Of a stretch of DNA of 64,000 nt, positions 36,371-48,544 are shown one piece after another. Every line of letters starts with the position of its first letter. Position 1 is the stretch's first letter. The stretch comes from Acidimicrobiia bacterium (lineage in GTDB: Bacteria > Actinomycetota > Acidimicrobiia > Spongiisociales > Spongiisociaceae). The translations under genes were made by a program, and so were the position numbers. Under the pieces are notes generated by a model. It worked only from the letters and a program-made list of their open reading frames with translations, did no database searches and was not told the origin of the DNA. The stretch spans positions 1-64,000 of the forward strand of contig VXMM01000032.1 of assembly GCA_009841105.1 (NCBI GenBank), read 5' to 3'.

Positions 36371-39211
36371 GTGACGAACCGTCCGAGCTTCATGACCAGA
36401 GACAAGCTCATCGTTCGCGGAGCACGCGAGCACAACCTCCAGGACATCTCCGTCGAGTTGCCCCGCGAGAGGTTCATCGTCTTCACCGGCCTGTCCGGGT
36501 CGGGAAAGTCCAGCCTGGCGTTCGACACCATATACGCAGAGGGCCAGCGCCGCTATGTGGAGAGCCTGTCCGCGTACGCCCGCCAGTTCCTGGGGCAGAT
36601 GGACAAGCCCGATGTGGACTTCATCGAGGGCCTGTCACCCGCCATCTCGATAGACCAGAAGACCGCCAGCCGGAATCCCCGCTCCACGGTCGGCACCGTC
36701 ACCGAGATCCATGACTACCTCCGCCTCCTCTACGCCCGTATCGGGACGCCCCACTGTCCCCAATGCGGGAAGGTGGTGGAGCGCCAGACCCCCCAGCAGA
36801 TCGTGGACCGGATAGCCGAACTCGAGGCCGGCACCCGCTTCCAGGTGCTGGCGCCCATCGTCCGGGGACGGAAGGGGGAGTACGAGGAGCTGTTCCGGGA
36901 CCTGTCCCGCCAGGGCTTCAGCCGGGCCCGGGTCGACGGTGAGATCGTGGACCTGGCCGAGTCCATCCGTCTCGACCGCTACTACACCCACACCATCGAG
37001 GTGGTGGTCGACCGGCTGGTAGCCGGCCGGGGCGACATCCGGCGTCTCACCGATTCCCTCGAGACCGCCCTGGGCCTGACCGGCGGGACCGCGTTGATCG
37101 ACATCATCGACGGGCCCGAACTGACCTTCAGCCAGCATCTCTCCTGCGACAGCTGCGGCATCTCGTTCGACCAGTTGGAGCCCCGGTCGTTCTCTTTCAA
37201 CAGCCCCTACGGCGCCTGCGAGGCCTGCTCCGGAATCGGCACCAGGTTCGAGGTGGATCCCCGCCTGGTCGTGCCGGATGACGAGCGCTCCATCGCGGAC
37301 GGCGCGCTCGCCCCATGGGCGACGAACAGCAACCGCTACTACCAGCATCTCCTCAACGGCCTCGCCAAGGCGCTGGGTTTCGATGTCAACACCCCGTTCT
37401 GCGACTTGGACATCGAACACCAGCAGGCCGTGCTGTACGGCACCGGAGACCTCCGGGTCCAGGTGTCCTTCACCAACCGGTTCGGCCGCCGCCGACGCTA
37501 CCGAGCCAAGTACGAAGGAGTGATACCGGTGCTGCGCAGGCGGCACGAGCAGACCGACTCAGATCATGCCCGGTCGGTGTACGAGGAGTACATGCGCCGG
37601 GTGCCGTGTCCGACCTGCTCCGGGGCACGCCTCAACCCGGTGTCGCTGGCGGTCACCGTCGGAGAGTTGAACATATTCGAGATGTGCGACCGGTCGATCC
37701 GGGGCACGCTCGTGGCCCTCGAGCGGCTCGAACTCAACGAACGGGACAAGACCATTGCGGGACCGGTACTCAAGGAGATCCGCGAGCGCCTCAACTTCCT
37801 TCTCGATGTGGGTCTCGAGTACCTGACCCTCTACCGGGGAGCGGCCACCCTCTCCGGAGGCGAGGCGCAGCGCATCCGCCTCGCAACCCAGATCGGCTCG
37901 GGACTGGTAGGCGTTCTCTACGTGCTCGACGAGCCTTCCATCGGTCTTCACCAGCGGGACAACCGGCGGTTGCTCGAGACGCTGCTCCGTCTCCGCGATC
38001 TCGGCAACACCCTGATCGTGGTCGAGCACGACGAGGAGACCATCCGGACCGCCGATCACGTGGTCGACCTGGGCCCGGGAGCGGGGGAGCGGGGCGGGCA
38101 CGTGGTGGCGGAGGGGGATCTCTCCAACCTCGTGGCCGAGCCGGAGTCACTGACCGGGGCGTATCTGGCGGGACGCCGGCACATCCCCACGCCCGGGCGG
38201 CGTCGCAACGGCGACGGGCGGTCCCTCAAGGTGATCGGCGCCGCTGAGAACAACCTGCGCAACCTTGATGTGGATCTCCCTCTGGGCAAACTGATCGCGG
38301 TGACAGGCGTGTCCGGAAGCGGCAAGTCCTCCCTGGTCCAGGAAATCCTGTCCAAGGGCCTGCACAGCCGGCTGTATCGCTCGAGGTCCGTTCCCGGACG
38401 TCATCGCCGCATCGAAGGGGTCGAGCACCTCGACAAGGTGATAAATATCGACCAGTCGCCCATCGGGCGCACGCCGCGCTCGAACGCCGCCACGTATACG
38501 AAGGTGTTCGACCGGATCCGCAAGCTGTTCTCCTCCACGCCGGAGGCCCGGGCCCGCGGCTACCTGCCGGGACGCTTCTCGTTCAACGTCAAGGGAGGGC
38601 GCTGCGAGGCCTGCCGGGGCGACGGCAACATCAGGATCGAGATGCACTTCCTGCCGGATGTCTACGTGATGTGCGAAGTCTGCGAGGGCCGGCGCTACAA
38701 CCGGGATACCCTGCAGGTGTTGTGGAAGGGCCGGTCGATCGCCGACGTCTTGAACATGCCCGCCGAGGAGGCACTCTCGTTCTTCGAGGCGCAGCCCCCG
38801 ATCGCCCGGATCATCCAGACCATCTGCGATGTCGGCCTTGGCTACATCCGCCTGGGCCAGCCTGCCCCGACCCTTTCCGGAGGGGAGGCCCAGCGGGTGA
38901 AGCTGGCATCCGAGCTGGGCAAGCGGGCCACGGGCAACACCTTCTACATCCTGGACGAGCCCACCACCGGACTGCACTTCGAGGACACGCGCAAGCTCCT
39001 GGAGGTACTCCACCGCCTGGTGGACACCGGGAACACGGTCGTGGTGATCGAGCACAACCTGGACGTGGTCCGCTCTGCGGACTGGATCATCGACCTCGGC
39101 CCGGAAGGCGGAGACGAGGGCGGACGGATCGTGGCCTCGGGGACCCCCGAGCAGGTGGCCGCCGTACCCGAGTCCTACACCGGCAAGTTCCTCCGGGATG
39201 TCCTCCGGTGA
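36371..39211 (+). CDS. uvrA: Excinuclease ABC subunit A
   Basis: A 946-residue damage-recognition ATPase with two ABC modules. Walker A sites [12 protein letters not shown] and [12 protein letters not shown]; signatures [14 protein letters not shown] and [14 protein letters not shown]; zinc-binding clusters [24 protein letters not shown] and [19 protein letters not shown]. The start may be GTG 36371 or ATG 36392. In Streptomyces uvrC lies close downstream; here 6.6 kb of other genes intervene. Confidence 0.97.
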
Positions 39212-39224
39212 CAAGCGCAAATTC

Positions 39225-39252
39225 CTAGACTTAGTTCACGAACTTAGTCTAG
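39225..39252. promoter_or_regulatory. 28-bp palindromic operator of the antitoxin-toxin pair
   Basis: CTAGACTTAGTTC, AC, GAACTTAGTCTAG: 13-base arms with one mismatch around a two-base centre. It ends 31 bases before the antitoxin ATG and is markedly AT-richer than its surroundings. Phd/YefM-type antitoxins bind such palindromes to repress their own operon, so this is the likely autoregulatory site and probably overlaps the promoter. Confidence 0.75.
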
Positions 39253-39283
39253 AGTGGAGCGGCATGTGAGAGGAGCAACTCGT

Positions 39284-39520
39284 ATGACCGTGACCGTGAA
39301 CGTGCACCAGGCCAAGACGCACCTGTCGAAGTTGTTGGATCGTGCCCATGCCGGGGAGGAGATCATCCTCGCCAAGGCGGGAAAGCCCTATGCCGTGCTC
39401 GGACCGCTCCCTCCCCAGGACGTGGGCCGCCGCCCCGGCCGGCTGGCCGACCAGACCGTCGGCCCGGAGATACTCCTGCCCCTACCCCCGGGCGAACTTG
39501 ATGCCTGGGACCGGCGGTGA
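39284..39520 (+). CDS. Phd/YefM-family antitoxin
   Basis: A 78-residue antitoxin. The N-terminal half (VNVHQAKTHLSKLLDRAHAGEEIILAKAGKP) is the DNA-binding Phd/YefM fold; the C-terminal half is Pro/Asp-rich, probably disordered until it wraps the toxin. ATG 39284 has AGGAG eight bases upstream. Its stop shares one base with the toxin start, so the pair is coupled. The palindrome upstream is its expected operator. Confidence 0.88.
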   Translation: MTVTVNVHQAKTHLSKLLDRAHAGEEIILAKAGKPYAVLGPLPPQDVGRRPGRLADQTVGPEILLPLPPGELDAWDRR

Positions 39521-39906
39521 TGCGGCTCCTCCTTGACACGCATGCCTTGCTCTGGTGGTGGACCAACAACCCCGGCCTCTCGGCCCTAGCCCATAATTCC
39601 ATCGCCGATGGGACATCCGAGGTGTTCGTGAGCGCGGCAAGCGCTTGGGAAATCGCCACTTTGCGACGGCTGGGGCGCCTGGATCACGCACCCGACGCCA
39701 TCCAACGCTTTCATGAACTGGTCACAGCGGATGAGTTCCATCATCTCGCCATCACGTACACACACTGTCTCCGCGCCGGCTCCTACACGGCGGAGCATCG
39801 TGATCCCTTCGACCGGATGCTGGCCGCCCAGAGCGAGATGGAGTCACTCACCCTGGTAACCAAGGACCCTGCGTTCGGACAATTCGGAACCACGGTTATC
39901 TGGTGA
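39520..39906 (+). CDS. PIN-domain ribonuclease toxin, VapC type
   Basis: A 128-residue PIN-domain protein. Acidic metal ligands: Asp in LLLDTHALLWWW, Glu in SAASAWEIATL, and the Asp pair of HRDPFDRMLAAQ, with a final Asp in TKDPAF. VapC toxins cut tRNA or rRNA. The pairing with a Phd-type antitoxin rather than a VapB/AbrB type is common. Start ATG 39520, directly after the antitoxin. Confidence 0.88.
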   Translation: MRLLLDTHALLWWWTNNPGLSALAHNSIADGTSEVFVSAASAWEIATLRRLGRLDHAPDAIQRFHELVTADEFHHLAITYTHCLRAGSYTAEHRDPFDRMLAAQSEMESLTLVTKDPAFGQFGTTVIW

Positions 39907-39981
39907 GACCGCAGTGGTCCCGGAGGCAGCAACAGCAGCGATCACCCGTGCCGGGACCGCAGGTGATGAGAATGGATCGCC

Positions 39982-40707
39982 ATGAGGATGCCAGGGAGAC
40001 AGGAACAGCCGGACGATTGGACCGACCTGGCCGGCTGGTGGTTTGCCGAGGCCGATGATCCGGCCTACGGGGAAGAGGTGGTACCCCTCTTCCTCGAAGT
40101 GTTCCGGCCGATGAATGGTCAGGTATTGCTTGATCTGGGTTGCGGGGACGGCCGCATCGGCGAGAGGCTGGCGGACGAGGGCGTCAGGGTGGTCGGTGTG
40201 GACGTCAATCTCGAGCTGGCCCGCCTGGCCTCCGGTCGCCATCCGGTGTTCCTCAGACGGCTGCCCGACCTGGCCTGTGTACGCGACGCGGCGGTGGATG
40301 GCGCCTACGCCGTCCTGGCTCTGGAGCATCTCGAAGACTCGGGGCGCTTCTTCGCCGAGACCGCCCGGGTCACCCGCTCCGGTGGGTCGCTGGCGATCGT
40401 GATCAACCATCCCTTCTACACGGCTCCCGGGTCCGGGCCGGTGATCGACCCGACCGACGGCGAGTTGTTCTGGAGGTTCGGGGACTACCTGAGCGAGGGC
40501 CGAACCCGGGAGCCGGCCGGAGACCGGTCCGTCAAGTTCATCCACCGACCCATCGGAACGCTGCTCACCCAAGCGGCCGCGGCCGGGTGGTCACTCGAGG
40601 CGGTACTGGAGCAGGGTGTGGGTTCGAGAGCCGCATCCAGAGATCCGATCCTGGCCAAGCACCGGGACATCCCCCACCTCATGGCGCTCCGCTGGCGGCG
40701 CGACTAA
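39982..40707 (+). CDS. Class I SAM-dependent methyltransferase
   Basis: A 241-residue methyltransferase. Motif I is VLLDLGCGDGRIGERL, followed by VVGVDVNLELARLA, ALEHLEDSGRFFAE and a SGGSLAIVI strand. Substrate not evident; the long insertion with INHPFYTAPGSGP resembles methyltransferases of small molecules or quinones. Either ATG 39982 or 39991 may start it. It lies between the toxin pair and a strong terminator and has no operon partner. Confidence 0.85.
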   Translation: MRMPGRQEQPDDWTDLAGWWFAEADDPAYGEEVVPLFLEVFRPMNGQVLLDLGCGDGRIGERLADEGVRVVGVDVNLELARLASGRHPVFLRRLPDLACVRDAAVDGAYAVLALEHLEDSGRFFAETARVTRSGGSLAIVINHPFYTAPGSGPVIDPTDGELFWRFGDYLSEGRTREPAGDRSVKFIHRPIGTLLTQAAAAGWSLEAVLEQGVGSRAASRDPILAKHRDIPHLMALRWRRD

Positions 40708-40740
40708 ACCCGGGACGCGAGAGCTTCGCCTCCGGCACGC

Positions 40741-40782
40741 GAAGACCCGGCTCCTCTTGATTCGATGAGGAGCCGGGTCTTC
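40741..40782. terminator. Bidirectional hairpin terminator
   Basis: A perfect 16-base inverted repeat (40741-40756 with 40767-40782; GAAGACCCGGCTCCTC on the left) around a 10-base loop. It sits exactly between the convergent methyltransferase gene and the betaine-binding gene, so it can end transcription from both sides. No long T-run follows. Confidence 0.8.
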
Positions 40783-40809
40783 CGTTAGCTGTCTTGGTTT
40801 CCGGACCCG

Positions 40810-41751
40810 TCAGCCGGCAGCTCGCGCTGTCGCCAGCCAGTCGTCGACCTGGGCACGGTTGGCGGCGATCCAAGCCTGGGCGTCGGCCTGGACATCAGCC
40901 TCCGAGTACTCGTCGGCAGCGGCCATCTTGGCGTTCTGAGCCGCGATGTCACCCAGCGGAATCGCCACTACCTCGAGCAGGCGTTGGACATCCGGGTTCC
41001 TATCCAGGAAGTCGGTGTTCGCCACCGCTCGAATGTGATTGACGTTCGACTGCAGCCAGACGGCATTCTGACCATCCACCAGAACGGTGTTCGTCCAGTT
41101 GGGCGTCCAGGCATAGAACAGTGCCGATTGACCGGCACTCACCTTGTCCACGACCCCAGCGGCCAACTCGTCATAGGTGCCGGAGATCTGCTCCACGCTG
41201 GAACCCCAACTCTCGTTGGCGATCTGCTCGTTGATGGCAGACTCGCATCCCCATCCGACGTTGCATCCGAATAGGTCGGCCTTGCCGTCGCCGTCATGGT
41301 CGAAGGCACCAGCGTTAGCGGCCACACCGTCCATCGAGGTGATCCCCAGACTGTCAGCCGTAGCCTTGTCGATCATCAGGCCGTCGGTGGCACCTTGGGC
41401 CACCTGCCAGCCGACCGGTTCGATCGGTAAGTCGACCGCTTGGCCGGTGACGTTCTCTCCTTCCAGGTAGAAATCGTGGAGAGGGAACCACCCATTGGCC
41501 CACAGGTCGTACTGCCCGGCGGCCAGGGCCGGATAGAACGAGTAGGGGCTGAGGGTGGCGGCCGCCGGATCGGTGACCTCGTACCCGAGTTCCGTGATCA
41601 GCTCCGCATAGATGGCAGCCTGCATGTAGCCGGAACTCCAGTTGGCCCGGGCGATCGCCACGGGGCCCTCCTCTTCCTGAACGCCGCAGGCCGAGAGCAC
41701 GAGTACGAATGCCGCGACCGCGGCGATTGCAGTGCTCGATCTCTTGATCAC
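40810..41751 (-). CDS. Glycine-betaine-type substrate-binding lipoprotein
   Basis: A 313-residue lipoprotein of the OpuAC/ProX superfamily. The signal ends in the lipobox LSAC (Cys22). The binding domain has the Trp-rich pattern ARANWSSGYMQ, AAGQYDLWANGWFPLHD and YAWTPNWTN that forms the aromatic box for quaternary amines. An EF-hand-like loop DHDGDGKAD precedes paired cysteines (CNVGWGC). GTG 41751 overlaps the BCCT stop (GTGA) and has GGAGG upstream. No ABC permease or ATPase is nearby: its partner appears to be the BCCT carrier. It is clearly homologous to the N-terminal half of the channel protein at 43725, over its whole length. Confidence 0.9.
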   Translation of the reverse strand: MIKRSSTAIAAVAAFVLVLSACGVQEEEGPVAIARANWSSGYMQAAIYAELITELGYEVTDPAAATLSPYSFYPALAAGQYDLWANGWFPLHDFYLEGENVTGQAVDLPIEPVGWQVAQGATDGLMIDKATADSLGITSMDGVAANAGAFDHDGDGKADLFGCNVGWGCESAINEQIANESWGSSVEQISGTYDELAAGVVDKVSAGQSALFYAWTPNWTNTVLVDGQNAVWLQSNVNHIRAVANTDFLDRNPDVQRLLEVVAIPLGDIAAQNAKMAAADEYSEADVQADAQAWIAANRAQVDDWLATARAAG

Positions 41752-43526
41752 GTTCCACCTCCTCTCTCCAGCCGCTCGATCAAGCCGCTGTGCTGTGCTT
41801 GGAAGATGGCCTCGTCGTAGTGGCTCTCCAGGAGGTCGAGTTCCTCGTCGAAGGCCTTCTTCAGGCTCCACAGCATGATCAACAGCACGAAGAGGAAGGG
41901 CAGCCCGGTAGCCACGGCAGCTGTCTGTAAGGCGGACAGGCCGCCTCCCGCCAGCAACACGATCGCCACCGCGCCTTCCATCAACGCCCAGAACACGCGC
42001 TGCGGCTTGGGCGAGTCGAGCTTTCCTCCCGAGGTCAGGTGGTCCACCACCAGGGATCCCGAGTCCGACGAGGTGACGAAGAACGAGACCAGCAACAGGA
42101 TGCCCACTATCGAGACGAAGAAGGTCCATGGGAAGGCCTCCAGCATCACGAACAGGGCTGTCGCCACGTTTTCGTTCACCGCCGTCGCAACGTCCAACTC
42201 TCCGGTCATCTGGAGATTCATGGCCGCTCCGCCGAACACCGCGAACCACAGGAAGCAGAGCAGGCAGGGAAGGACGATCACACCGATGATCATTTCCCGC
42301 ACCGAGCGTCCCTTGGAGATCCGGGCGATGAACATGCCGACGAAGGGGGACCAGGAGATCCACCATCCCCAGTAGAAGATGGTCCACCACTGCTGCCACT
42401 GTGTGTCGAGCAAGGCTGCATTCCAGAACGAGAACTCCGGCAGGATCTGGATGTAGACGCCGATGCTCTCCACGTACAGCGACAGGACCAGCAGGGTCGG
42501 GCCCACCGCCAGCACAAAGACCAGGAAGGCCGCGGCCAGCCAAACGTTGAGCGCGCTGAGCCGCTTGACACCGGCGTCCAAGCCGGCCACAACCGAGATG
42601 GTGGCCAGCCCCGTGATACCTGCGATCAGCAGAATCTGGACCAACAGGGTATCCGGTACACCGAAGACCTTGTTCAGCCCTGCGGCGGCCTGCGAGGCGC
42701 CGAACCCCAGCGAAGTGGCCAAACCAAAGAGGGTGGCCACCACGGTGAGGATGTCGATGGCGTTGCCCCATCCGCCGTAGATCCTCGGACCCAGGATCGG
42801 GTAGAAGACCGAGCGGAAGGTCAGGGGTAGTCCCCGGTTGTAGGCAAAGAACCCCAGGGCGAGGGCTACCAGGCCGTACAACGCCCACCCATGGATCCCC
42901 CAGTGGAGGTAGGAGGTCGCCAGCGAGGCCCGGGCCGCGCCCGTCGACAGGGGCTCCACGTCGAACAGGGGAGGCGGCGCCGTCAGGTGGAAGATCGGCT
43001 CTGCCACGCCCCAGAACATCAGCCCGATGCCGAGACCGGCCGAGATCAGCATGGCGTACCAGGCGGGGGTGGAGAACTCCGGAAGGGCCCCCGGGCCGCC
43101 TAGTCGGATCTTGCCGTACCTCCCCAACGCGAAGTAGAGGGCGGCGCCGATGAAGACGTTGAACGCGATGATGTAGAGCCAGCCCACCTTCTCGTTGATG
43201 AAGCTGAGGATGGCGCTGAACACCCCGCCCGCCTGATCCGGGAAGATCAGGGTGGCCGCGATAAATATCAGGAGAAATCCTGCGGCGTAGAACGTCACCT
43301 GGGGATGTATGTCGAATCCCCACCTGACGATGTTCTTGTCACCGGGCTCCCGGTCGGCCACCTCGGGATAGAAATCGATATCAGGGTCGACCTGGAGACC
43401 CTCGAAGCGCGCACGATGCCGGATGGCGTCATCGCGCCGGCGCTCCTGGTCCCTCTCCCAGTCCTCGTAGGCCTCCGAGATGCCCGTGAGGTCTAGGTCT
43501 TGGTCTTGCCCTTTGCCGTCAGCCAT
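41748..43526 (-). CDS. BCCT-family betaine/carnitine/choline transporter
   Basis: A 592-residue secondary transporter with about 12 membrane helices, typically driven by Na+ or H+. A long charged cytoplasmic N-terminus (about 1-75) is followed by the helices. The family's Trp-rich segment is present (YWGWWISWSPFVGMFIARISKGRSVREM), as are the Gly-rich unwound helix (LISAGLGIGLMFWGVAEP) and the SSDSGSLVVDHL motif. The C-terminus has a 35-residue charged tail, a region that senses osmolality in BetP. ATG 43526 has an excellent site (GGGAGGGGGG). It is translationally coupled to the binding lipoprotein that follows. Confidence 0.93.
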   Translation of the reverse strand: MADGKGQDQDLDLTGISEAYEDWERDQERRRDDAIRHRARFEGLQVDPDIDFYPEVADREPGDKNIVRWGFDIHPQVTFYAAGFLLIFIAATLIFPDQAGGVFSAILSFINEKVGWLYIIAFNVFIGAALYFALGRYGKIRLGGPGALPEFSTPAWYAMLISAGLGIGLMFWGVAEPIFHLTAPPPLFDVEPLSTGAARASLATSYLHWGIHGWALYGLVALALGFFAYNRGLPLTFRSVFYPILGPRIYGGWGNAIDILTVVATLFGLATSLGFGASQAAAGLNKVFGVPDTLLVQILLIAGITGLATISVVAGLDAGVKRLSALNVWLAAAFLVFVLAVGPTLLVLSLYVESIGVYIQILPEFSFWNAALLDTQWQQWWTIFYWGWWISWSPFVGMFIARISKGRSVREMIIGVIVLPCLLCFLWFAVFGGAAMNLQMTGELDVATAVNENVATALFVMLEAFPWTFFVSIVGILLLVSFFVTSSDSGSLVVDHLTSGGKLDSPKPQRVFWALMEGAVAIVLLAGGGLSALQTAAVATGLPFLFVLLIMLWSLKKAFDEELDLLESHYDEAIFQAQHSGLIERLERGGGT

Positions 43527-43724
43527 GGTCCCCCCTCCCGTTGCTCATGACCATACGGGCCTCCTTTCAGTCGCCGGCCAGGTCGGCGGCCGCATCTGGC
43601 CGTGACCTGTGCACGTTCACTATATGAAGAACCGGCACGCGCGATCGAGGAAAAGCCGATTTTTGTTTCGATGGGGAGTCTCGAGACGTAGCTAGCCTTG
43701 GCACAACCACTACCGGAGACCATC
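43527..43724. promoter_or_regulatory. Divergent intergenic region between BCCT and channel genes
   Basis: A 198-bp gap that must carry promoters for both the BCCT-binding-protein operon (minus) and the chimeric channel (plus). The stretch 43615-43680 is AT-richer than its surroundings (ACTATATGAAG; GATTTTTGTTTCG). A shared regulatory site is plausible, but I cannot name one. No open frame of interest lies in it. Confidence 0.45.
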
Positions 43725-45803
43725 GTGCGCCGCACCCTGATCGCCAGTTCGCTGTTGGTTCTGGCACTTCTAGCCATGGGGGCGGTTGGCCCGGTGGCGG
43801 GCCAGCAACAGGAGGGTCCGGTCGAACCGAAGACGGTCCGGATGGCCCGGGCGACCTGGGACACTGGCTGGTTCCAGGCCGAGGTGTACCGGCTCCTGCT
43901 GATGCGTCTCGGGTATCGCGTGGAAGGCCCGGTCACCATGGAGAACCCCGACTTCTACCGCGCGGTGGCGGCTGGACAGGTCGATCTCTGGGCGAACGGA
44001 TGGTTCCCGACCCACGACGGTCTCATCGAGCCGGGACTCGTGGAGACCGTCGGGACGCAGGTGGACGCGGGAGCGCTCCAGGGATACTTCATCGATGCGG
44101 CCACGGCCGGGGCGCACGGCACAACCAACCTCGGAGACCTGGCCGATCCCGGAGTCGCCGCGCTGTTCGACCGGGACGGTGACGGGCGGGCCGACCTGAT
44201 CGGTTGCCAGACCGGCTGGACCTGTTCCCACATCATCGAGCACCATCTCGAAGTGTTCGGACTATCCGCCACGGTAGAGCAGGTACAGGGGGACTACTCA
44301 CCGCTGATAGCGGATACCATCGCCCGGTTCGAGGCCGGGCAGCCGGTCCTGTACTACACGTGGACTCCCAACTGGACCGTGGGCGAGTTGGTGCCCGGTC
44401 GTGACGTGGTGTGGCTGGAGACACCGTTCGCCTCCCTCCCTCCCGACCAGGCAGCCTTTCTCGACCGTACGTCGATACCGGGAATACCGGGATGCGCCAA
44501 CAATCCGTGCCAGGTGGGGTGGCCCCCCAACGACATCCGGGCAGTGGCCAACTCCGGCTTCCTAGAAGCCAACCCGTCGGTTCGCCGGCTTCTCGAACAG
44601 GTGGTGATACCCCTTGCGGACATCTCCAGCCAGAACGCGCGTATGGTCCATGACGAGGGTGATCCGGAGGACATCCGGCGACACGCGGAAGAGTGGCTGG
44701 TAGCCAATGCGGGCATGGTGTCCAAGTGGCTCGAAACCGCCGACCCGGAGGCCACGCCCCTTGACGCCGGGGACGGTTCGGCAGCCTCGGGCGGGGTGCT
44801 CACTGTCGCCGCCCGCATCCTTCCGCCCTTCACCATCTATGAGGAAGGGACCTACAGCGGCTTCGAGGTCGACCTGTTGCGGCTCATCGCCGCCCACCTC
44901 GGCATGACGGTCGACGTCTACGCTGTCGACACCGTGGCCAAGCAGGTGGACGACATCCACCGTGGACTTGCCGCCGTGGGGTTGGGGGGCGTGGCGATCA
45001 CCGGCCATCGGGAGGAAGCCATCGACTTCTCGCTCCCCTTGCTCGACACCGGCCTCACGATCATGACTGCGACGCGCGGATCCGAACCCGTATGGGACCG
45101 CATCCTGGTCTTCCTGCATGCCATCTGGGGTTCGGACCTGCCCTGGCTACTCGTGGTGTTCGCCGTCGCCGTCCTGGTCGCCGCGCACGTGATCTGGTGG
45201 CTGGAACGGAAGCACAACGCCGACTTCGCGGTGCCCTACCGTCGCGGCATCTGGGACTCGTTCTACTGGTCGGTCGTGACCATGAGCACGGTCGGTTACG
45301 GCGACAAGGTGGCCCGTGGAATGTCGGGCAGGGTGTTCGCTCTGATCTGGATCGCCCTGGGAACCCTGGTGTTCGCCAGCTTCACCGCCGCCATCGCCTC
45401 GTCGTTGGCGGTGAGCGAACTCCGGGGCGACATCGACGGACCCGCGGACCTCCCGGGCAACCGGGTCGCCACCGTCCAGAATTCGGCCGGACACACCTAC
45501 TTGACCGGTGTCGGCGTCGGCCCGGTCGCGGTACACGATCTCAACCAGGCCTACGACCTTCTGGCTCAGGGCGAGGTCGACGCGGTCGTGTTCGACGCGC
45601 CCGTTCTCCGGTTCCACGTAGCGCGCGAGGGCGAGGGCGAGGTGACCACGGTCGGCCCGCTGTTCGACAAGGTCCAGTACGGGCTGATGGTCAGCGAGGA
45701 CGACATCGCGCTCCGAGAGAGGATCGATCTGGCCCTGCTGGACCTCATCGAGTCTGGCGCCTACCAGCACATCCACGACCGGTGGTTCGGTGCGCACGGT
45801 TGA
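43725..45803 (+). CDS. Chimeric ligand-gated K+ channel: betaine-type binding domain fused to a GluR0-like receptor
   Basis: A 692-residue membrane protein. Signal peptide 1-25. About 33-340 is a complete OpuAC/ProX-type domain with Trp45, Trp49, Trp89, Trp93, Trp213 and Trp217 and a Ca-like loop 149-157. From 356 comes ligand-binding lobe S1 (GGVLTVAARILPPFTIYEEG) with Arg429 in TGHREEAIDFS, the carboxylate-binding Arg of glutamate-receptor domains. Helix M1 is about 473-495. The pore loop has the K+ filter TVGYG at 522-526. Helix M2 (about 537-560) ends in SFTAAIASS, like the SYTANLAAF of ionotropic receptors. Lobe S2 (about 565-692) contains Asp624 (VVFDAPVL), at the amino-group-binding position. 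The order S1-M1-P-M2-S2 is that of prokaryotic GluR0. GTG 43725 has GGAG seven bases upstream. Ligands are inferred, not known. Confidence 0.92.
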   Translation: MRRTLIASSLLVLALLAMGAVGPVAGQQQEGPVEPKTVRMARATWDTGWFQAEVYRLLLMRLGYRVEGPVTMENPDFYRAVAAGQVDLWANGWFPTHDGLIEPGLVETVGTQVDAGALQGYFIDAATAGAHGTTNLGDLADPGVAALFDRDGDGRADLIGCQTGWTCSHIIEHHLEVFGLSATVEQVQGDYSPLIADTIARFEAGQPVLYYTWTPNWTVGELVPGRDVVWLETPFASLPPDQAAFLDRTSIPGIPGCANNPCQVGWPPNDIRAVANSGFLEANPSVRRLLEQVVIPLADISSQNARMVHDEGDPEDIRRHAEEWLVANAGMVSKWLETADPEATPLDAGDGSAASGGVLTVAARILPPFTIYEEGTYSGFEVDLLRLIAAHLGMTVDVYAVDTVAKQVDDIHRGLAAVGLGGVAITGHREEAIDFSLPLLDTGLTIMTATRGSEPVWDRILVFLHAIWGSDLPWLLVVFAVAVLVAAHVIWWLERKHNADFAVPYRRGIWDSFYWSVVTMSTVGYGDKVARGMSGRVFALIWIALGTLVFASFTAAIASSLAVSELRGDIDGPADLPGNRVATVQNSAGHTYLTGVGVGPVAVHDLNQAYDLLAQGEVDAVVFDAPVLRFHVAREGEGEVTTVGPLFDKVQYGLMVSEDDIALRERIDLALLDLIESGAYQHIHDRWFGAHG

Positions 45804-45834
45804 TGGGTTGTCCGGGACCGAAGGGAACGAACCC

Positions 45835-47661
45835 GTGAACCGCCCCGCCCCGGCCGAGATCCCTGACGCTCCCGGCGCCTACCTGTTCCGTGATCGGCAT
45901 GGCCGCGTGAACTATGTGGGCAAGGCGAAGTCCCTCCGGAAGCGGGTCTCCACCTACTTCACAGGAGACCTGCCCCCCAGGACCCAGGCCATGGTCGAGG
46001 CGTCCGACGGGGTCGAGTGGATCGTGGTTGACAGCGAGGTAGCGGCTCTGTTCCTGGAGTTCTCGCTGATCAAGGAGCACCGGCCCCGCTTCAACATCCG
46101 CCTCCGGGACGACAAGAGCTATCCCTACCTGGCCATAACCCGGTCCGACCTCTGGCCGCGGGCCCGGGTGGTAAGGGGCGCGAAGCGCAAGGGTGTCCAG
46201 TACTTCGGCCCCTTCGCCCATGCGTACGCCATCCGCAACACCCTGGACCTGCTGCTCAAGTCGCTGCCGATTCGCACCTGCTCCGATGCGGTGTTCCGGC
46301 GCCACGAGCTCAAGGGCCGGCCATGCATCGAGTACGAGATCGATCGGTGTTCGGCGCCCTGCGTCGGCTATGTCGATCCGGATACCTACGCCGGGTACGT
46401 GAGTGGTCTGGAACAGGTTCTCTCGGGCAGCGCCGACGACCTGATCGAAGGCATCGAAACCCGGATGGTCGAAGCGTCAGAGAAACTGGACTACGAGCGC
46501 GCCGCCCGCCTGCGCGACCAGGCTCAGGATGTAAGGCGCGCGGTGGCCCGCCAGGAGGTGGTCACCGACCGGCGGGAGGACTTCGATCTGATCGCCATGG
46601 AGGAGACCGACCTAGAGACCTCCGTGCAGGTACTCAAGGTACGCAACGGTCGTATCGTCGGGAGGTTGGGGTCGATCATCGACAAGGTCGAGGACGTCAC
46701 GCCCTCCCAGGTCACCGCCACGGTCCTCCGGGATCTGTACGACGAGTCCTCTCCGCCGCCCCGCCTCATCCTGGTAGAAGCCCTGCCCCCCGGTGACGAG
46801 CCCTGGTCGGATCTCCTGTCCCAGCGACGCGGTGCTCGGGTAACCCTCAGGTCTCCCAAGCGGGGCGCCAAACGCCGGTTGCTGGAGACCACCAAGACCA
46901 ACGCTTCCGAGGCCCTCCTCCGGCACCGGCTGAGGCGCCAGTCCGACCACAACGCCCGAGCCCGCGATCTGCGCAGCCTCCAGACCGCCCTGGCGCTCCC
47001 GGAGCCGCCACTTCGGATCGAGGCCTACGACATCTCCACGATCCAAGGGCGCCATACCGTGGGGTCGATGGTGGTCTTGGAGGACGGGCTTCCCCGCCGG
47101 GCCGACTATCGAAGGTTCCGGATCCGGACCGTCACCGGGCAGGACGATCTCTCCTCGATGGAGGAAGTAATCCGCCGACGCTTCACCGCCTATCTCGCCG
47201 ACCTCGACAAGCCCGTTTCCGAACGGGGCAAGTTCGCCTACCCGCCCTCGCTGGTGCTGATCGACGGGGGACCGGGACAGATCGCCAGGGCGGTCGAGGT
47301 CCTCGCCCGGCTCGATCTCGACATACCTGTGGCAGGGCTGGCGAAGCGCATGGAGGAGGTGTACGTTCCGGGCCAGGTGGACCCGATCGTCATCCCTAGG
47401 GACCAGCCTGCACTCCACCTCCTCCAACGGGTCCGTGACGAGGCCCATCGTTTCGCCCTCATGTATCACCGCCAACTCCGCGGCAAGCGGATGATCGATT
47501 CCATCCTCGACGATGTGGATGGCGTCGGACCGGCTCGTAAGAAAGCCTTGGTCCGGACGTTCGGCTCGGTCAAGAAGATGCGCGAGGCCAGCGTGAGCCA
47601 GTTGGCCGAAGTGGTGCCCCTCCGGGTGGCCGAGAACCTCTACGCTACCTTGCATGGCTGA
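45835..47661 (+). CDS. uvrC: Excinuclease ABC subunit C
   Basis: A 608-residue dual-incision nuclease of excision repair. The GIY-YIG domain is N-terminal (PGAYLFRDRHGRVNYVGKAKSLRKRV). A UVR motif (LDYERAARLRDQAQDVRRAV) at about 210 binds UvrB. The RNase-H-like nuclease domain holds YDISTIQGRHTVGSM and LVLIDGGPGQI, and tandem HhH motifs end it. GTG 45835 has AGGGA upstream. It starts 31 bp after the channel gene and overlaps rapZ by eight bases. Confidence 0.95.
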   Translation: MNRPAPAEIPDAPGAYLFRDRHGRVNYVGKAKSLRKRVSTYFTGDLPPRTQAMVEASDGVEWIVVDSEVAALFLEFSLIKEHRPRFNIRLRDDKSYPYLAITRSDLWPRARVVRGAKRKGVQYFGPFAHAYAIRNTLDLLLKSLPIRTCSDAVFRRHELKGRPCIEYEIDRCSAPCVGYVDPDTYAGYVSGLEQVLSGSADDLIEGIETRMVEASEKLDYERAARLRDQAQDVRRAVARQEVVTDRREDFDLIAMEETDLETSVQVLKVRNGRIVGRLGSIIDKVEDVTPSQVTATVLRDLYDESSPPPRLILVEALPPGDEPWSDLLSQRRGARVTLRSPKRGAKRRLLETTKTNASEALLRHRLRRQSDHNARARDLRSLQTALALPEPPLRIEAYDISTIQGRHTVGSMVVLEDGLPRRADYRRFRIRTVTGQDDLSSMEEVIRRRFTAYLADLDKPVSERGKFAYPPSLVLIDGGPGQIARAVEVLARLDLDIPVAGLAKRMEEVYVPGQVDPIVIPRDQPALHLLQRVRDEAHRFALMYHRQLRGKRMIDSILDDVDGVGPARKKALVRTFGSVKKMREASVSQLAEVVPLRVAENLYATLHG

Positions 47662-48544
47662 GCCCGACGCCCCGGTATCCCCCACGACGGGCCACGGCTC
47701 CCGGTTGCTGATCCTGACAGGTCTATCCGGCGCCGGTCGCTCCACGGGCGCCAAGGTCCTCGAAGATCTGGGCTTCTACGTGATCGACAACCTGCCCCCT
47801 TTCCTTCTCCGCCAAGTTGTCGAGCTGAACGACCTGCGGGCGGGCGGCCGGCACCTAGCCGTAGTTCTGGACAGCCGCGGCGGCTTCCCGGTGAGCGAGC
47901 TCGAGACCCACATCCAGGAGTTGGAGCGGTCCGGTATCGGCGTGACGCTGGTCTTCCTCGACGCTGATGACGATGTTCTGATCCGCCGCTACGAGGAGCA
48001 CCGCCGTCCCCACCCTCTCGGATTGCCGACCCTCGCCGACTCGATCTCGGCCGAACGCGAGATGATGGTCGACCTCCGGCTCCGAGCCGACATGTATATC
48101 AATACCAGCGAGACCAATGTCCATCAGCTTCGCGAGTGGTTCGGGAGCCACCTCTCGGCGCTGGTGGACGAGCACGCGATGCGCCTGGCGGTGACCTCAT
48201 TCGGCTTCAAGAACGGCACGCCACGCGACAATGACCTGATGTTCGATGTACGTTTCCTCCCCAATCCTCACTGGGTGCCCGGTCTCCGTCTCCTAACCGG
48301 CCGAGATGAGCAGGTGAGGGCCTTCGTGCTCGGCACCGAAGATGCTCGCGGCTTCCTGGAGAGGATCCGTGACCTGCTCTCGTTCCTGATCCCGCGCTAC
48401 CGGGAGGAGGGCAAGTCCTACGTGAGTATCGGGATCGGCTGTACCGGAGGGCGGCACCGATCCGTGGCCATCGCCGAGGACCTGGGGGAGTGGCTGGCAG
48501 ACCAGGAGTATCACGCCACCATCCGTCACCGGGATGTCGAGTAG
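47654..48544 (+). CDS. rapZ: RapZ/YvcJ-family nucleotide-binding protein
   Basis: A 296-residue P-loop protein; in E. coli RapZ directs small-RNA decay for amino-sugar control, and in actinobacteria its role is less clear. Walker A is GLSGAGRST, with Arg where Lys is usual; the same substitution is known from actinobacterial homologues. The C-terminal domain has FGFKNGTPRDNDLMFDVRFLPNP and IGIGCTGGRHRSVAI. In other actinobacteria yvcK and whiA follow directly; here pgk does. Confidence 0.93.
   Translation: MAEPDAPVSPTTGHGSRLLILTGLSGAGRSTGAKVLEDLGFYVIDNLPPFLLRQVVELNDLRAGGRHLAVVLDSRGGFPVSELETHIQELERSGIGVTLVFLDADDDVLIRRYEEHRRPHPLGLPTLADSISAEREMMVDLRLRADMYINTSETNVHQLREWFGSHLSALVDEHAMRLAVTSFGFKNGTPRDNDLMFDVRFLPNPHWVPGLRLLTGRDEQVRAFVLGTEDARGFLERIRDLLSFLIPRYREEGKSYVSIGIGCTGGRHRSVAIAEDLGEWLADQEYHATIRHRDVE

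Follow-up and report, generated by a model that had tools for sequence, protein, structure and literature searches.

A ProX-type binding domain fused to a GluR0-like potassium channel and encoded beside BCCT transporter genes in several bacterial phyla

Bacterial osmoadaptation has two arms, potassium and betaine, and the trade-off between them is usually explained through separate transporters and kinases. Within the 64,000-nucleotide stretch of Acidimicrobiia DNA analysed here (the window), a single reading frame appears to join a ProX/OpuAC-type binding domain to an ionotropic glutamate receptor (iGluR) channel of the GluR0 type, raising the questions of whether the fusion is real, what its two ligand domains bind and what such a protein might do. 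Should it prove to read external betaine and to set K+ conductance, this one receptor would be a direct link between both arms.

The frame is open from a GTG start at 43725 to the stop at 45803 on the forward strand and encodes 692 residues in the order signal peptide, ProX/OpuAC domain and S1-M1-pore-M2-S2; the start is supported by homologues L009, L028 and L030, which have ATG at the equivalent place. The predicted signal peptide (residues 1–27; 43725–43805) has a hydrophobic core at residues 4–25 and a modeled helix at 7–16. Pfam places OpuAC at residues 36–325 (43830–44699; E = 1.5e-46, with PF04069 scoring 159.5 bits against a cut-off of 21.2), and NCBIfam assigns the N-terminal half to ProX at equivalog level (NF008334, 340 bits against a cut-off of 215). 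A variable linker, delimited by alignment, model and dN/dS (residues 341–357; 44745–44795), leads into the channel half, in which a type 3 SBP domain, divided into S1 and S2, flanks two transmembrane helices and a pore loop. The S1 lobe (residues 358–452; 44796–45080) holds R429 and the S2 lobe (567–690; 45423–45794) holds D624, both lobes being defined by Pfam and alignment. Between them lie M1 (472–494; 45138–45206), the pore helix (505–521) with the TVGYG filter (522–526; together 45237–45302), identified by sequence, alignment and model, and M2 (533–566; 45321–45422), the two helices being placed by models and hydropathy. Correspondingly, the SBP_bac_3 match (362–689, 1e-21) is interrupted by Ion_trans_2 (479–561, 4.4e-15), and Lig_chan is matched at 474–577 (1.1e-11). 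A first-pass annotation, made from the sequence alone, had claimed that one frame joins a complete OpuAC/ProX domain to a GluR0-like channel, with TVGYG at 522–526 and Arg429 and Asp624 in the second ligand site; the intact frame and the Pfam order bear out the former claim, and the alignment the latter. Every domain of the protein is under purifying selection: against a 90%-identical relative, dN/dS is 0.14 for OpuAC, 0.08 for S1, 0.09 for the transmembrane part and 0.11 for S2, with a looser 0.34 in the linker, and across close relatives it is about 0.1–0.4 in the folded parts and usually higher in the linker.

E. coli ProX, a free periplasmic binding protein for glycine betaine and proline betaine that serves ProVW, is the best solved relative of the N-terminal half (1r9l). 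The pocket of the fusion was mapped by the ProX residues that form the three-Trp cage, together with His69 and the Cys136–Cys142 disulfide. W65, W140 and W188 of 1r9l align with W93, W165 and W213 of the fusion, H69 with H97, and Cys136/142 with C161/C167; the window protein thus shares the whole domain with E. coli ProX, including the complete cage, the His and the disulfide Cys residues. Among 28 diverse fused members, W93, W165, C161 and C167 are present in all 28, position 213 is W, F or Y throughout, and H97 is found in 25. The earlier description of this half as a betaine-type ligand domain therefore holds at the level of sequence, the aromatic cage being kept and the ProX cut-off passed, and the distal domain is predicted to bind a betaine of the glycine betaine/proline betaine class in the Trp cage. 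Unlike E. coli ProX, it is tethered to a channel and is not a free ABC-transporter binding protein.

The closest solved ligand core for the channel half is that of Nostoc GluR0 (2pyy), followed by NMDA receptors. R429 occurs in 28/28 fused members, D624 in 27/28 and TVGYG in 27/28, the exception being Haloactinopolyspora (Jiangellaceae; L056:7746-9944), which reads PFGAG. A Jiangellaceae relative (L077:8068-9957) also has no GYG, so that two family members are without the K+ filter; these may be non-selective or non-conducting receptors. The Arg/Asp pair suggests that the proximal S1S2 site binds an amino acid. Five residues, V401, A405, K406, D409 and R413, are present in all fused but few unfused GluR0-type members, a specificity which indicates that the channel half changed together with the added ProX domain. 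The position matching GluA2 Thr91 is Ala, Gly or Ser and the fused-specific Lys K406 lies in the first lobe, so that glutamate is perhaps not the second ligand. The M1-P and P-M2 loops are positively charged, which suggests that they are cytoplasmic, i.e. that the protein has the inverted iGluR topology measured for GluR0 (PMC13099474). We infer that the fusion protein is a ligand-gated K+ channel; its gating, the sign of that gating and its ligands are inferred likewise.

An AlphaFold2 model of the full protein from a 28-row alignment had a mean pLDDT of 78 and a pTM of 0.48, the domains being confident and their mutual placement uncertain. Foldseek matched this model to ProX bound to glycine betaine (1r9l, TM 0.88, 37% identity over the fold alignment) and also to the AMPA receptor LBD-TMD. 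The channel half modeled alone, with unfused relatives added to the alignment (49 rows), reached a pLDDT of 89.7 and again matched AMPA LBD-TMD structures. The channel is presumably a tetramer.

A fused frame in one assembly could arise by a frameshift or misassembly that joins two genes, and frame breaks are indeed seen in some relatives. Such copies are rare: in L076 the frame changes at a linker poly-A run, L072 and L077 are split elsewhere, and a Kiritimatiellae copy is interrupted by a contig end. Against the breaks in L076 and L072 stand 53 uninterrupted full-length fusions recovered by a peptide-pattern scan of species-representative genomes (one genome per species), including those of the isolates Salsipaludibacter albus, Haloactinopolyspora alba and Halomicronema sp. 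CCY15110. Together with purifying selection over the whole frame, these loci rule out an artefact, the chance of which we regard as negligible. Thirteen further loci come from the window's genome and its relatives and overlap partly with the 53. The hosts are Acidimicrobiia, Nitriliruptoria, Jiangellaceae, deltaproteobacteria including Desulfosarcinaceae, Chloroflexota, Bacteroidota and Cyanobacteria (Halomicronema, Symploca and Leptolyngbyaceae), and Pfam finds an identical domain order in six of the most divergent fused members. The order of OpuAC, SBP_bac_3 and pore, for which the first-pass annotation had proposed a search across genomes, is therefore present in 53 species-level genomes as a single gene, with neither a frameshift nor a stop between the halves. 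A plasmid-borne full-length fusion was found in 0 of 72,556 records at 80% cover.

Quick trees, in which long branches are present, were built for both domains. The channel-domain tree unites all fused members in a single clade (SH-aLRT 99), in which two unfused rows from cyanobacteria and L076, with its broken frame, are also placed; the OpuAC tree likewise has one clade (96) for all fused members except the Chloroflexota row L062, whose placement is unresolved. The simplest reading is that the fusion arose once, long ago, and that gene transfer carried it between phyla, with few losses. Repeated independent fusions are not needed, since both trees group the fused members, and a recent origin of the fused ProX as a copy of the neighbouring ProX was rejected since the OpuAC tree sets the fused domains apart from BCCT-paired ProX. 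The earlier proposal of an independent origin of a two-ligand-domain receptor stands in part: the ProX-type addition is separate from that of animal receptors and belongs to one bacterial clade, but it is an old, widespread family and not a one-off.

The fusion gene is divergently oriented to a BCCT-family transporter gene (592 residues; 41748–43526, reverse strand; PF02028, 1.4e-184), the sole BCCT gene of the genome, across a 198-bp intergenic region (43527–43724). The closest solved structure to this transporter is the trimethylamine transporter 8zw8, followed by choline carriers and BetP. On the same reverse strand, a stand-alone ProX lipoprotein identified by Pfam (313 residues; 40810–41751) has a start that overlaps the BCCT stop by 4 bases; the neighbours are thus BCCT and ProX, with no proVW genes alongside. 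A BCCT gene lies within 4 kb of 43/58 fused loci, which belong to several phyla and show the two genes divergent, convergent or on one strand, as compared with 3/21 stand-alone ProX loci of the same scan; a fourth apparent case is a truncated fusion and is not counted. Adjacency is seen at 32/35 fused loci of the window's wider clade (the remaining three being contig-limited), 2/2 in Nitriliruptoria, 4/4 in a second Acidimicrobiales group, 3/4 in deltaproteobacteria, and 1/1 each in Chloroflexota and Kiritimatiellota. The BCCT gene is non-adjacent in cyanobacteria, Jiangellaceae, one Desulfosarcinaceae and a Bacteroidota member. Three deltaproteobacterial fused loci have an OpuAC protein beside BCCT (choline-type by NCBIfam in L071), and the operons L071 and L075 also encode an enzyme, for which the closest structures in L071 are 4e8g, 4h2h and 2pmq, of the hydroxyproline-betaine epimerase group. 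The coupled ProX lipoprotein and BCCT pair (40810–43526 on the reverse strand of the window) also occurs without the channel in L094, L095 and L098. The betaine cassette of the window is flanked by the housekeeping genes uvrA and uvrC-rapZ (36371–48544), and a Phd/YefM antitoxin and PIN-domain toxin pair lies at 39254–39906 on the forward strand.

Presence and absence across genomes follow the same pattern. The fusion occurs in 14 of 59 relatives (a contig end cuts it in one of them), and all 14 have one BCCT gene, the adjoining one; of the 45 relatives without the fusion only one has BCCT, and that genome is without the channel. BCCT was also present in each of the nine further fused genomes that were checked, three of them cyanobacteria in which it lies elsewhere in the genome. 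Of 25 genomes whose GluR0-type channels are unfused (24 of cyanobacteria and one of an actinobacterium), one has BCCT. All these counts share ancestry and are not independent trials. Adjacency in varied orders and phyla and the cyanobacterial contrast point the same way: the fusion is linked to BCCT. The betaine reading is strengthened by this neighbourhood and co-occurrence, evidence that was absent from the first-pass annotation.

Compared with known systems, the fusion has in common with the GluR0 type (Synechocystis GluR0; NpGluR0 LBD 2pyy) the S1-M1-P-M2-S2 order, TVGYG and the Arg/Asp site. The fused clade is separate from GluR0 in the tree and has its own LBD residues, the five given above. 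In animal and plant iGluRs (AMPA, NMDA and GLR), as in the fusion, an extra clamshell lies N-terminal to S1-pore-S2, and the LBD-TMD fold matches. The animal amino-terminal domain is LIVBP-like, whereas that of the fusion is ProX/OpuAC, M4 is absent and the K+ filter is kept. Two serial clamshells also precede the membrane module in the tandem binding-domain proteins GlnPQ (SBD1-SBD2) and BvgS (Foldseek 6h30 and 4q0c), where they feed a transporter or kinase and not, as here, an ion channel. GluR0 has no N-terminal domain (PMC6385376); the fusion, with its complete ProX domain, is therefore a variant and not a typical member of the GluR0-type prokaryotic iGluRs. The sections consulted of a survey of 100 prokaryotic iGluR-like sequences list no betaine-binding domain (PMC2950845). 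The earlier remark that no described protein of this architecture was known to its author agrees with our search of the open-access literature, in which no paper on a ProX/OpuAC-iGluR fusion was found, an absence that is not proof.

The mechanism that we consider probable is a plasma-membrane, K+-selective, tetrameric iGluR-type channel in which the distal ProX domain allosterically sets gating over the amino-acid site and ties betaine uptake to K+ flux. Each subunit would carry two stacked extracellular clamshells, ProX-type distally and S1S2 proximally, and betaine binding to the former would change gating by the latter, in a manner comparable to the amino-terminal domains of NMDA receptors. 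The channel would work alongside the BCCT betaine-family importer, such that K+ permeability changes when external betaine is present and imported. Most likely K+ would leave as betaine takes the place of K+ (and K-glutamate) in the cell; with a cation-coupled importer, K+ exit would have the second benefit of offsetting the charge brought in. Synechocystis GluR0 is a K+ channel of the plasma membrane, has both of its termini on the outer side and influences cell volume following KCl upshock (PMC13099474). The background given in that paper is that cells first import K+ with glutamate and later shift to compatible solutes with release of K-glutamate. This switch fits a betaine-reading channel with an amino-acid site beside an importer, which is why the direction that we favour is K+ release promoted by betaine during its uptake. 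More broadly, it is about an even bet that the fusions form a class of dual-ligand receptor channels, in which a betaine-gated or -modulated K+ channel and BCCT make up a betaine-for-K+ exchange module and the bacterial N-terminal addition to the iGluR core is independent.

The link to BCCT could also mean that the ProX domain captures substrate and delivers it to the importer, in a channel-importer complex whose pore only compensates charge, with no betaine gating. BCCT adjacency, the strict co-occurrence and the second ProX lipoprotein coupled to BCCT would all fit, but the operon already encodes a free ProX lipoprotein, purifying selection acts on the pore module and the S1S2 amino-acid site, and we know of no BCCT carrier that needs a binding protein, those of known structure working without one; we regard delivery as unlikely. 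We think it similarly unlikely that the amino-acid site is the only gate, with ProX tuning sensitivity or inhibiting, so that betaine closes the channel and K+ is retained or taken up. The near invariance of R429 and D624 is consistent with this, as is the finding that Synechocystis GluR0 serves for passive entry of K+ when KCl is high (PMC13099474), although the sequence fits activation and inhibition alike and does not distinguish the sign. Less likely still is a ProX domain that has lost ligand binding and serves only assembly, trafficking or stability. An engineered AMPA/K+ channel functions without the animal N-terminal domain (PMC6385376), but the cage and disulfide residues of the fusion are almost invariant across phyla, beyond what assembly alone needs, and the gene is linked to betaine genes.

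If betaine-modulated gating is correct, the two-domain layout known from animal glutamate receptors would have been reached a second time, in bacteria, and the family would offer a simple model for control of an iGluR pore by an N-terminal clamshell. It would also give a function to GluR0-type channels, for which little is known about the physiological ligands. Three related loci or groups were also observed. Unfused cyanobacterial GluR0 relatives (L130-L135) form a clade without TVGYG, with a TLATQADE-like sequence instead. The Olavius algarvensis Delta 3 genome (G254) encodes the fusion and at least four unfused GluR0-like channels. Genome G011 (C1:2009919-2018095) has five consecutive OpuAC matches on one strand in about four frames, of which an 830-residue frame holds two.
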